A stretch of 53,265 bases of DNA from an uncultured Candidatus Poseidoniales archaeon (GTDB taxonomy: Archaea; Thermoplasmatota; Poseidoniia; Poseidoniales; Poseidoniaceae): positions 1 through 53,265 of the forward strand of contig CACLCM010000011.1 in the NCBI GenBank assembly GCA_902605365.1, read 5' to 3'. The notes under the pieces were generated by a model that was not told where the DNA came from, searched no databases, and saw nothing but the letters and a program-made list of their open reading frames with translations. The position numbers were made by a program, and so were the translations under genes. Below, piece by piece: positions 14,897 through 20,628 of the stretch (position 1 is its first letter; each line of letters opens with the position of its first letter).

Positions 14897-15250
14897 GTGA
14901 ATTCATATCTTGCAGTGGGTTTGGGTGGAGCAATAGGTGCAATACTTCGTTTCGTAGTATCAGAATGGGTTGGTAATCCTCAAGGAACACTATTAGTGAA
15001 TGCATTAGGCTCGCTATTACTTGGAGTTTGCATGGCTGCACTTGCAAGTGAAATGATATCCAAGGAAATGACTCTATTACTCGGAACTGGCATTTTAGGA
15101 GCATTCACTACAATGTCTACATTTTCTGTCGAGACTATTGAATTGTGGAGCGATGACCAAATGAAAGCCGTAGGATATGTATTGGCAACTATGATTCTAT
15201 GCCCACTACTAGCATATGCTGGTTGGAAAGTAGTAGAAATTACTGCTTAA
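14897..15250 (+). CDS. crcB: Fluoride ion exporter CrcB
   Basis: A 117-residue protein with four hydrophobic helices. AVGLGGAIGAILRFVVS, GTLLVNALGSLLLGV and GTGILGAFTTMSTFSVET are the CrcB/Fluc signature segments, including the N in the second helix and the phenylalanine-box TFS in the third. It forms a dual-topology dimeric fluoride channel. GTG 14897 (VNSYLAVGLGG) is chosen because family similarity starts there; GTG 14891 and TTG 14867 are alternatives. Only one copy is present here. No crcB/fluoride riboswitch consensus was found upstream. The 3' end overlaps nadA by 11 bases. Confidence 0.92.
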   Translation: MNSYLAVGLGGAIGAILRFVVSEWVGNPQGTLLVNALGSLLLGVCMAALASEMISKEMTLLLGTGILGAFTTMSTFSVETIELWSDDQMKAVGYVLATMILCPLLAYAGWKVVEITA

Positions 15251-16370
15251 TCGAAAGCATTCTTTCCAGAGCTATTTTCGCTCCCTTCTGAACTGATTTC
15301 CCAACTATGACTTGATTAGGAACTTCACCGTCTACAAGTCGCTCTAAAACATCCATCAAATAGGCCGGATGAATCATGTACATAGTTGAACAAGGACAAA
15401 CAGTTGGTTCTAGACACTGAACGTTGAGGTCCTCATGCTGTGAATCTAAACGGGCAACCATGTTGATTTCTGTACCTACCGCAATATGAGTTCCCGGCTT
15501 CTGCTTTGCTACAAATCGGCGGATATATTCCGTACTACCATTGGCATCTGCTGCTTCCACAACTTCCATCGGACACTCAGGGTGAACTACTACTAACCCC
15601 TCTGGATGTTGTTCTCTAAAAGCTTCAATCTGGCCAACTGTAAATCTTTTGTGAACTGAACAGAAACCATGCCATAATACGATTTTAACATCCTCAGGAA
15701 GCGTATTATCTTGGCCAGGAGTCCATACTGCCATCTGTTCCAGAGATATCCCCATAGATAATCCGGTATTGCGACCAAGATGCTGGTCTGGGAAAAATAG
15801 TACTGCACCGTTTGGACCCGCTCGATCATATGCCCATTGCAAGATTCCTTCAGCATTGGAGGAGGTACATACGATTCCACCGTGTCTGCCACAGAAATCT
15901 TTCAATTCAGCTGCACTATTCATGTAGGTAACTGGAATAAGGCATGAATCTCCCTCTTTTGCTGTTGCAGGGTCGCTTAATCCAGAACGTTCCAAGATAT
16001 CTTTCCAAGCAACTTCAACATCTGGTAAGGCCGCCATATCAGCCATTGAACAACCTGCACGCATGTTCGGAAGTATCACATTTTGTTCATCCGAAGTAAG
16101 TATATCTGCAGATTCTGCCATGAAATGTACACCGCAGAAAATGATGTTTTTTGCGTTGGATTTTGCCGCTAATTCTGAAAGTAAAAACGAGTCACCAAGT
16201 AGGTCAGCATGCATTACAATCTGGTCTCTTTGATAGTGGTGACCAAGTATCAACAAGTCTTCACCCATCTGCTCTTTTAACTCCGCAATACGCTCTGCGA
16301 TTGCGGCCTCTTCGGGACCCATTGCGTCATTGGTGAAGTCAATGGCGCACATCGGCAATGACATGGTCAT
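15240..16370 (-). CDS. nadA: Quinolinate synthase A
   Basis: A 376-residue NadA. LILGHHYQRDQIVMHADLLGDS is the conserved N-terminal substrate loop; IIFCGVHFMAESADIL, LPNMRAGCSMADM, VHPECPMEV and CPCSTMYMIHP carry the conserved residues including the Cys ligands of the [4Fe-4S] cluster. With NadB (not in the window) it makes quinolinate from iminoaspartate and dihydroxyacetone phosphate for NAD synthesis. The ATG at 16370 gives a slightly long N-terminus; the core begins near residue 20. It overlaps the convergent crcB by 11 bases. Confidence 0.96.
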   Translation of the reverse strand: MTMSLPMCAIDFTNDAMGPEEAAIAERIAELKEQMGEDLLILGHHYQRDQIVMHADLLGDSFLLSELAAKSNAKNIIFCGVHFMAESADILTSDEQNVILPNMRAGCSMADMAALPDVEVAWKDILERSGLSDPATAKEGDSCLIPVTYMNSAAELKDFCGRHGGIVCTSSNAEGILQWAYDRAGPNGAVLFFPDQHLGRNTGLSMGISLEQMAVWTPGQDNTLPEDVKIVLWHGFCSVHKRFTVGQIEAFREQHPEGLVVVHPECPMEVVEAADANGSTEYIRRFVAKQKPGTHIAVGTEINMVARLDSQHEDLNVQCLEPTVCPCSTMYMIHPAYLMDVLERLVDGEVPNQVIVGKSVQKGAKIALERMLSIKQ

Positions 16371-19242: not shown

Positions 19243-19590
19243 TCACCATGCACCATGGACGTATGGTTTACCGTTATCTGGGTCTTGATTCTCTCCGAGG
19301 CGCCAAATTCTCTCGAATCGATGAATGCCTGCTGAGCATCCTGTTTTCCAGTCGAATGATAATGCATAATTCCCTATGGTGCGTACCGATGGTTTTTCAT
19401 TAGGTAATCTCTCAATATTACGACGAAGACTCTTGGATGATTCGTCATCGTTACGCTGAGGTGAGCAATTTGCGCAAGGACAAGCGTGCCTCAGGTCATC
19501 ATAGGTGATCTCATGTTCAGTTCCATCTGACCATGTCAGATGCATATCGAACTCTCTGCGTTCTAAACGATTTAGTTCAGGAATATCCAT
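19243..19590 (-). CDS. DUF971 (GBBH-like) domain protein with CPCxxC motif
   Basis: A 115-residue single-domain DUF971 protein. LTWSDGTEHEITYDDLRHACPCANC carries Cys37, Cys39 and Cys42, and NYALSFDWKTGCSAGIHRFERIW is the conserved C-terminal strand with Cys85. The family is found N-terminal in gamma-butyrobetaine hydroxylase and C-terminal in the chloroplast Fe-S carrier HCF101, where it follows an Mrp-type ATPase. Here it is the gene immediately after the Mrp gene (9 bases apart), so the two probably work together, most likely in Fe-S cluster transfer (inference from gene order and family). Confidence 0.85.
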   Translation of the reverse strand: MDIPELNRLERREFDMHLTWSDGTEHEITYDDLRHACPCANCSPQRNDDESSKSLRRNIERLPNEKPSVRTIGNYALSFDWKTGCSAGIHRFERIWRLGENQDPDNGKPYVHGAW

Positions 19591-19599
19591 AACGAAACC

Positions 19600-20628
19600 T
19601 CAGATTATTTCCAACCCGGGTCCGTTTGAACCAGATTCGACAATGTCTTGGATTTCTGTAACTACTTTGGCGAATGCCACAGAAGATTCTCCCTCAGGTT
19701 CTGAAACAATACGGTGAACTCCATCATCACCACCGCGTACAAACCCTGGGTCGAATGGTAATTTACCTAAGAATGGAACACCGAAATCATTGGCTGTTCT
19801 TTCGCCACCACCCGCTTTGAATATGTCTAGAGTTCCTGCCCAATCTCCATTATCATCAGTAGTTAATTTGATTGTTTTACCACCAGGCGCTGCGAGTTCG
19901 ATTGCAGTTCCTGCTGGAGCTTTGCCTCTTATTGTGTAACCACTCATATTCTCGACAACTCCTATGACATCAACCTTTAGAGAATTGGCGAACGTTATCG
20001 ACTTTCTTGAGTCTAGGAGAGCGACATCTTGAGGAGTCGTTACGATAACCATACCATCAATATCCGGTAGGTTTTGAGCGACGGTTAGTGGTTCATCAGA
20101 AGTTCCTGGAGGGAAATCGATAATCAGATAATCCAACCCTCCCCATTCCACATCGCCAATGAATTGCTGAATTGCCCCTAACTTGATTGGACCTCTCCAA
20201 ACAACAGGAGAATCTTCATCCTCTAGTAAAAAGGCCATTGAGATGACTTTTACGCCAAGGTGTCCTTCGGCAGGATGGATTCTACCACCCTCTACATTCA
20301 GGCGCCTGCCGTCCAGCCCCATCATTTTAGGCACATTCGGCCCGGTTATGTCGATATCTAGTAATCCAACTTTGAGTCCTTTTTGTGCTAGAGATAGTGC
20401 AAGTCCAGTAGCCACTGTTGATTTGCCAACTCCACCTTTTCCAGATAGAACCATAATTTTGTGTTTAATCGTTTTACCCATCTCAGATATTGCCATCTTT
20501 CGCTTCATCTGAGCATATGCTGCTTCCATCTTTTTCTGATCTTCAGGAGTTGCAGGCTCAGGAGCGCCGCCGGGATTGTTAACCTTCACAGGAGAGTCAG
20601 CCATCAGTTGCATCGGCGGGTTTGACAT
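19600..20628 (-). CDS. Mrp/ApbC-type ATPase lacking all cysteines
   Basis: A 342-residue Mrp/Nbp35-family P-loop ATPase: deviant Walker A SGKGGVGKST (62-71), switch I DIDITGPNVP, Walker B DYLIIDFPPGTSDEPLT and TTPQDVALLD. Family members usually follow ENMS with a CPxC motif that binds a bridging [4Fe-4S] cluster. Here ENMSG (226-230) is followed by about 38 residues without Cys (YTIRGKAPAGTAIEL onwards), and the whole protein contains no cysteine. The DUF59 domain common at the N-terminus is also absent, replaced by ~50 polar residues. A GAGGG ribosome-binding site precedes the ATG. Probably a cluster-carrier ATPase that has lost its own cluster site. Confidence 0.9.
   Translation of the reverse strand: MSNPPMQLMADSPVKVNNPGGAPEPATPEDQKKMEAAYAQMKRKMAISEMGKTIKHKIMVLSGKGGVGKSTVATGLALSLAQKGLKVGLLDIDITGPNVPKMMGLDGRRLNVEGGRIHPAEGHLGVKVISMAFLLEDEDSPVVWRGPIKLGAIQQFIGDVEWGGLDYLIIDFPPGTSDEPLTVAQNLPDIDGMVIVTTPQDVALLDSRKSITFANSLKVDVIGVVENMSGYTIRGKAPAGTAIELAAPGGKTIKLTTDDNGDWAGTLDIFKAGGGERTANDFGVPFLGKLPFDPGFVRGGDDGVHRIVSEPEGESSVAFAKVVTEIQDIVESGSNGPGLEII

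Follow-up and report, generated by a model that had tools for sequence, protein, structure and literature searches.

RESULTS

An Mrp ATPase without its cluster motif is paired with a four-cysteine DUF971 protein

In the window, by which we mean the whole stretch of 53,265 nucleotides analysed here, an ATPase of the Mrp/NBP35 family that lacks the CPxC motif, and in which a predicted β-meander takes the place of the cluster loop, is encoded next to a DUF971 protein with four cysteines. This combination, which occurs as a pair in family f1 of the Poseidoniales, is new. We favour the reading, with a probability of roughly 45%, that the pair is a single module for the maturation of Fe-S proteins, in which the parts of HCF101 exist as separate proteins and an ATP-switched Mrp would dock DUF971. 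The loss of CPxC, the insert, the intact Walker A motif, the order-wide conservation, the linkage of the two genes and their fusion elsewhere were all observed and support this reading; the unlinked genes of the second family, f2, and the weak structural model of DUF971 (mean pLDDT 69) count against it.

The ATPase and the insert that replaces its CPxC loop

The Mrp gene (19600..20628, minus strand) encodes 342 residues, none of which is cysteine. The protein was assigned to the Mrp/NBP35 family of P-loop ATPases by PF10609 (E = 2e-87; 293 bits against a Pfam cut-off of 27.1), by an AlphaFold2 model (mean pLDDT 90.5, 40 sequences) and by the structures nearest to that model, ApbC 8zkc (Z = 34.0), Cfd1 6g2g (Z = 30.6) and Thermococcus kodakarensis HypB (TkHypB) 5auq (Z = 29.7). 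The deviant Walker A motif GKGGVGKS (residues 63-70; 20419..20442, minus strand) is intact and fits the pattern GKGGhGK[ST]. It was invariant in an alignment of 12 Mrps, its residues 63-69 were invariant across 40, and it was visible in 47 of the 48 Poseidoniales Mrps read, the remaining one being masked at this place. ENMS occupies residues 226-229, and the next 41 residues extend to F270. The accessible part of PMC6345978 describes the CXXC of Mrp/NBP35 proteins as bridging a [4Fe-4S] cluster; no such motif follows ENM in the window Mrp or in any of the 48 Poseidoniales Mrps read (50 loci, 2 not read). The first-pass annotation had described a 342-residue, Cys-free Mrp without CPxC after ENMS, and the window sequence bears this out. 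Total absence of Cys is not strict across the Poseidoniales: counted from the P-loop onward, 36 of the 48 proteins lack Cys, and the other 12 each have one stray Cys. Compared with the Mrp/NBP35/ApbC carriers (Cfd1 6g2g, ApbC 8zkc), the protein shares the fold, the deviant Walker A motif and PF10609, and it likewise has no second strong copy beside it in genomes that encode a SUF system. It differs in that CPxC is missing; in its place is a stretch of 41 residues predicted to form four strands.

This stretch (residues 230-270; 19819..19941, minus strand) was delimited by alignment and by the AlphaFold2 model, which predicts strands at residues 231-236, 242-246, 252-256 and 262-267, all with strand pLDDT >90. 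In the model, a β-meander of four strands stands where the CPxC loop would be, a feature that is new here. Canonical Thermoplasmatota Mrps have 14 residues at this place (GFxCPxCGxxxDIF), so that the 41 residues amount to a net insertion of about 27. An insert free of Cys had been proposed at about 38 residues; its existence stands, and its size is corrected to a stretch of 41 with a net gain of about 27. Among 46 distinct Poseidoniales inserts, 4 contain a stray Cys.

Searched alone against Pfam, the insert gave no match, and residues 211-268 matched the Ig-like adhesin repeat NF033510 weakly (E = 1.8e-4). A profile of the Poseidoniales inserts clearly matched a protein of family f31 (genome G117; E = 1.2e-5); its matches to two bacterial Mrps were weak (E = 0.017 and 0.11), as were those to bacterial inserts in a further search (E = 0.0015 and worse). 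No relative was found among the viral contigs searched. In the accessible parts of the literature on DUF971, on Mrp without CXXC and on Fe-S proteins of Poseidoniales, nothing was found on the insert or on a CPxC-less pair.

The DUF971 protein and its putative metal site

The second gene (19243..19590, minus strand) encodes a DUF971/GBBH-like_N protein of 115 residues, for which PF06155 was the sole Pfam family matched (E = 2.6e-14; 54.2 bits against a cut-off of 22.8). A profile of 21 DUF971s matched the DUF971 protein 3luu (E = 5.5e-25) and human γ-butyrobetaine hydroxylase (GBBH) 3ms5 (E = 1.2e-6) with the CxCxxC motifs aligned, and a structure search with the weak AlphaFold2 model mentioned above placed 3luu first and GBBH third. 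The motif CPCANC (Cys37, Cys39 and Cys42; 19465..19482, minus strand) is kept in the order and aligns with CPCSDC of human GBBH. Cys85 (19336..19338, minus strand) lies where the GH motif has its His, as judged from the alignment to 3luu. The DUF971 neighbour had been noted for exactly these cysteines, and all four are present in 56 of 56 distinct Poseidoniales orthologues. According to the title of a paper by Rydzik et al., GBBH reportedly contains a structural zinc, the ligands of which we take to be Cys38, Cys40, Cys43 and His82. The window protein has the CxCxxC part of such a site, with Cys85 in place of the His. Compared with the same domain in GBBH (3ms5, 3o2g) and in 3luu, which shares the CxCxxC motif, the Poseidoniales protein is stand-alone and has Cys at the fourth position.

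The fourth position is His in 20 of 20 DUF971s read from Candidatus Neomarinimicrobiota and in the other Cys-type bacterial DUF971s read except L268, from a Tectomicrobia genome (G208). L268 is the sole other DUF971 read with a fourth-position Cys, and the Mrp of that genome keeps CPQC. In a DUF971 tree built from few columns, L268 groups with the Poseidoniales (support 86) on a long branch, and the pair from the sister order groups with bacteria. On these sequences, the Poseidoniales DUF971 appears to have an all-Cys site, and the change from His to Cys does not seem to follow the loss of CPxC in general. Proteobacterial DUF971s without CxCxxC still keep the His, suggesting that this residue may serve more than metal binding. 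In L256 (Nitrospira) and L272 (Poribacteria), DUF971 carries a second CPCxxC motif after the domain, at the C-terminal end.

Pairing and conservation of the two genes in Poseidoniales

In the window, the DUF971 gene lies 9 nt after the Mrp gene on the same (minus) strand, and a ribosome-site-like GAGG (19598..19601, minus strand) overlaps the Mrp stop codon, 8 nt before the DUF971 ATG. In 20 of the 29 f1 loci measured, 9-12 nt separate the Mrp stop codon from the DUF971 ATG. Our sample of the order comprised 61 genomes, 37 of family f1 (the window's own included) and 24 of f2; an insert-type Mrp, full or cut by a contig end, was found in 53 and DUF971 in 56. Both genes were present in 32 of the 37 f1 genomes, adjacent on one contig in all 32, and the other 5 had neither, a joint presence and absence that is expected from adjacency. 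In f2, DUF971 was found in 24 of 24 genomes and Mrp in 21, and the genes were adjacent in none of the 21 genomes with both. By eye, a gene for a Pus10-like tRNA pseudouridine synthase follows the two f2 DUF971 genes examined (L127:1349-2299 and L133:1430-2200). Conservation in f1 extends to the genes on either side of the pair, so that adjacency by itself carries modest weight as evidence. The expectation that the pair would be co-conserved in related genomes therefore holds for the presence of both genes across the order and for their adjacency in f1; in f2 they are unlinked. We consider the link between Mrp and DUF971 to be real, given f1 adjacency together with the fusions in the sister order and in proteobacteria, one of which lies in an Fe-S operon.

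The window is a contig of a 1.45-Mb assembly that is 60% complete. Other PF10609 matches in this genome were weak (E = 7.4e-6 and 2.5e-5), and the first of them looks ArsA/GET3-like. A PF10609 search for a second strong Mrp in the Poseidoniales genomes likewise gave only weak further matches. A second, canonical Mrp, which the first-pass annotation had named as evidence against its proposal, was thus found neither in the window's genome nor in its relatives; since the former is 60% complete, this result rests on the relatives. Neither of the two refuting outcomes named by that annotation, the other being DUF971 cysteines that vary among orthologues, was therefore observed. Of the 61 Poseidoniales genomes, 59 encode SufB/SufD-type proteins and 57 encode an FSCA (SufT-type) protein that stands alone, its gene lying <3 kb from SufB and SufD in G036, for example; neither SufBD nor FSCA was found in the window's own 60% complete genome. 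FSCA, Mrp and DUF971 are all encoded in Poseidoniales, indicating that the building blocks of HCF101 exist there as separate proteins. About 3 kb from the pair, an ORF (15240-16370, minus strand) resembles NadA quinolinate synthase by eye. NadA is a [4Fe-4S] enzyme, and the ORF is a reminder of the need for clusters in this genome.

Relatives in the phylum, fusions and descent

DUF971 was found in 33 of 145 genomes of the phylum, 33 of the 37 in the window's class and 0 of the 108 elsewhere. Canonical Thermoplasmatota Mrps had CxxC in all 27 that were readable at the motif (30 loci). Of 18 further Mrp loci read from the phylum, only those of G117 (f31) and G157 (f35) lacked Cys at the motif. 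The G117 protein has an insert of the Poseidoniales kind in a genome without DUF971, and in the G157 protein (L152) the CPxC loop is deleted (ENMSGDVFGIGGG) and there is no Cys, in a 96% complete genome that also lacks DUF971.

Fusions of the two domains occur outside the Poseidoniales. In the sister order (f3, probably Marine Group III), genome G063 encodes FSCA, Mrp and DUF971 in a single chain (L115:1447-2874) with CPEC kept; G144 (L116) encodes an Mrp-DUF971 chain, its start cut by the contig end, in which CPxC is gone and Ala stands in place of the DUF971 His. Polaromonas sp. E5S has a CPHC-containing Mrp fused to a DUF971 with CRCALC...GH between NifU-family genes, in a plasmid operon with a cysteine desulfurase, SufU, BolA, Grx4, two NifU and lipoyl synthase, and Octadecabacter arcticus has a similar fusion. 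In a Gemmataceae bacterium (L223), the DUF971 gene lies directly upstream of a CPxC-less Mrp gene. The accessible part of PMC7980591 reports FSCA-ParA-DUF971 proteins in plants, algae and some bacteria. The association of Mrp with DUF971 is real and old.

The Mrp tree was a quick one, made without bootstrap and including no eukaryotic HCF101. In it, the archaeal half (99*) contains the Poseidoniales Mrps as one clade (100*), and the fusions L115, L155 and L156 fall in the bacterial half (99*), where the sister-order fusion groups with those of Polaromonas and Octadecabacter (support 85). The Poseidoniales clade includes L159 (Euryarchaeota archaeon UBA59) and L160; NCBI assigns UBA59 to Candidatus Poseidoniales, and on that ground we take the window's order to be this one (Marine Group II). 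The pair had been called a split HCF101. This name fits the architecture and not the history, since the Poseidoniales Mrp is archaeal and the fusions are in the bacterial half. Fission of a bacterial FSCA-Mrp-DUF971 fusion as the origin of the pair was rejected by the quick Mrp tree and not favoured by the DUF971 tree with its few columns. Measured against HCF101, the three domains are not in one chain, FSCA being stand-alone elsewhere in the relatives' genomes, and in the quick tree Mrp does not group with FSCA-Mrp-DUF971 proteins, whereas DUF971 is present and linked to Mrp in every f1 genome that has the genes. Relative to HCF101 and the bacterial FSCA-ParA-DUF971 proteins, as described in the accessible part of PMC7980591, Mrp and DUF971 are alike, FSCA/SufT is also encoded, and CxCxxC is present in most HCF101s; the Poseidoniales differ in having three genes rather than one, an archaeal Mrp and a Cys at the fourth DUF971 position.

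Loss of CPxC in a broader sample

A broader sample consisted of the best 80 of 581 Mrp loci, one genome per species, retrieved with the patterns SGKGGVGKS and PPGTSDEPL, and is not random. CPxC was absent from 23 of these best 80 of 581 loci, 2 from Poseidoniales and 21 from other organisms, mostly bacteria; L178 is one of the loci that keep CPHC. The 21 are drawn from 78 loci outside the order, and 11 of them have a Cys-free ATPase core, indicating that, within the best 80 of 581 loci, Cys loss in Mrp is not rare. Of the 20 genomes with a CPxC-less Mrp that were searched (best 80 of 581 loci), 19 had no other strong Mrp, and the cyanobacterium of the sample has two strong Mrps, the second also without CPxC.

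Both of these counts, together with the unlinked DUF971 of f2, favour an alternative in which the ATPase acts by itself, as one of a widespread class of CPxC-less and cluster-free Mrps, DUF971 is a separate zinc-domain protein and the f1 linkage is a relic. Against it, Mrp and DUF971 are repeatedly found fused or adjacent, in separate lineages and once in an Fe-S operon, and f1 genomes have both genes or neither, although adjacency alone would lead one to expect this. We regard this alternative as rather doubtful.

For the co-occurrence counts we left out L173 (same assembly as L165) and L205. DUF971 of any kind was present in 11 of 20 CPxC-less and 22 of 56 CPxC genomes from the best 80 of 581 loci (Fisher P = 0.29). 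Cys-type DUF971s were classed from the best matches only (capped at 30 and 10 loci) in the 33 genomes outside the order that have DUF971. They showed a slight excess among genomes with a CPxC-less Mrp (7/20 versus 7/56, P = 0.04; best 80 of 581 loci), but the excess was gone when the comparison was restricted to a subset (7/20 versus 6/27, P = 0.51; best 80 of 581 loci). The any-kind and restricted values give no firm tie between the loss of CPxC and the gain of DUF971, and DUF971 as a general replacement for the lost motif was rejected by these counts. DUF971 was absent from G117, from G157 and from 9 of the 20 CPxC-less genomes among the best 80 of 581 loci, indicating that it is not a required partner of CPxC-less Mrps generally.

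A second lineage with inserts is the order of Candidatus Neomarinimicrobiota around G194, to which one of the two bacteria weakly matched by the insert profile belongs; 40 of 41 genomes matched and loci were taken from 30. All 30 Mrps read (L304-L333) have an insert instead of CPxC, and many of these inserts are longer than that of Poseidoniales. Of the six proteins scanned, two matched the beginning of CarboxypepD_reg (PF13620, E ~2e-5), and Big_1 (PF02369, E = 1.2e-3) was matched as well by one of them; the suggestion that the Poseidoniales insert is Ig-like comes from its NF033510 match and from these inserts. A Marinimicrobia locus, L185, keeps CPHC, indicating that the insert-type Mrp does not extend to the entire phylum. 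The two groups are alike in having an insert, in some Neomarinimicrobiota CarboxypepD_reg- or Ig-like, for CPxC. In contrast to the Poseidoniales, the Neomarinimicrobiota Mrps have an N-terminal FSCA domain (6/6 scanned) and their founding member, L197, lies in the bacterial half of the tree, and their DUF971, found in 28 of the 41 genomes, keeps the His and is encoded apart from Mrp in the loci read. Insert-bearing lineages occur on both sides of the deepest split of the Mrp tree, and the starred branches force at least three changes. This distribution suggests that the same kind of element replaced the cluster loop repeatedly or was passed on as a segment; both courses would fit the Mrp tree, which does not tell them apart.

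No support for a move of the cluster site to DUF971

The first-pass annotation proposed that the cluster site had moved from Mrp to DUF971. In the corresponding two-component carrier, the four cysteines of DUF971 would hold the cluster and the Cys-free ATPase would only drive its loading and release. The point in favour is that the fourth ligand position, Cys in all Poseidoniales, is occupied by His in almost every other Cys-type DUF971 read, and the excess of Cys-type DUF971s at P = 0.04 leans the same way; the restricted and any-kind comparisons (all from the best 80 of 581 loci) show no such excess. The move is otherwise unsupported. CxxC and the DUF971 CxCxxC coexist in one chain in the G063, Polaromonas and Octadecabacter fusions, indicating that the two motifs are not substitutes. 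Some CPxC-less Mrps are found in genomes that lack DUF971, and in alignment the CxCxxC of DUF971 coincides with the motif of human GBBH, reportedly an enzyme with a structural zinc. The fourth-position Cys of L268 sits in a genome whose Mrp keeps its motif, and Neomarinimicrobiota with an insert-type Mrp retain the His. In the accessible part of PMC5890173, Arabidopsis HCF101 is described as binding a [4Fe-4S] cluster, although green-plant DUF971 lacks the CxCxxC found in most HCF101s, as far as the accessible part of PMC7980591 goes; the authors of the latter call the function of DUF971 elusive and consider that CxCxxC may bind divalent metals. We consider such a carrier unlikely. Quite unlikely, in our estimate, is the fuller scenario in which a cluster-free Mrp class arose more than once, with a half Ig/CarboxypepD_reg-like β-meander placed at the site of the [4Fe-4S] bridge, and a four-cysteine DUF971 took over the cluster in Poseidoniales, giving a true two-component, ATP-switched Fe-S carrier.

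DISCUSSION

We propose that the Poseidoniales Mrp no longer holds a bridging cluster of its own and that, at the dimer face, a β-meander may have replaced the CPxC loop. The protein would act as an ATP-driven switch that docks the putatively metal-binding DUF971, and probably clients too, through this former cluster face. The four-cysteine site of DUF971 would most likely bind zinc and serve as a structural or docking element. Clusters would be supplied by SufBCD/SufT, and the pair would take part in Fe-S protein maturation. The best reading is an ATP-switched partner system that may be HCF101-like in its parts and, by analogy, HypAB-like in its logic.

The analogy comes from T. kodakarensis. 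The accessible part of PMC7055735 describes TkHypB as a member of the Mrp/MinD family that has no nickel site, a new site arising only with HypA and ATP. HypA, small and with a four-cysteine zinc site, forms an ATP-dependent A2B2 complex with TkHypB; it docks on the side that faces away from the nucleotide and increases the ATPase activity threefold. On that description, the Poseidoniales pair resembles HypB-HypA in having an Mrp/MinD-type ATPase without a metal site of its own, and ATP-dependent docking of a small zinc-binding partner is the feature that we propose it may share. In contrast, the partner family is unrelated, and the metal there is nickel rather than Fe-S.

The likeness could be taken literally, with the pair being a HypAB-like metallochaperone for a metal other than iron that is carried by DUF971. 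TkHypB is among the closest folds, and the way in which its site arises with HypA and ATP would fit. However, DUF971 is not HypA, PF06155 being its only Pfam match, and the Mrp-DUF971 fusions known so far function in Fe-S biogenesis or are encoded in that context, making this alternative very improbable in our view.

For the family, the finding bears on the textbook mechanism of Mrp/NBP35 proteins, which rests on the CPxC-bridged cluster; the Poseidoniales, an entire order of marine archaea that are abundant in the ocean, and an order of Neomarinimicrobiota do without the motif. With a β-structured insert predicted at the CPxC position of what is, in Poseidoniales, the sole strong Mrp found, the ATPase role would be separable from the cluster role. 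DUF971, known as a domain of HCF101, becomes testable as a stand-alone partner.
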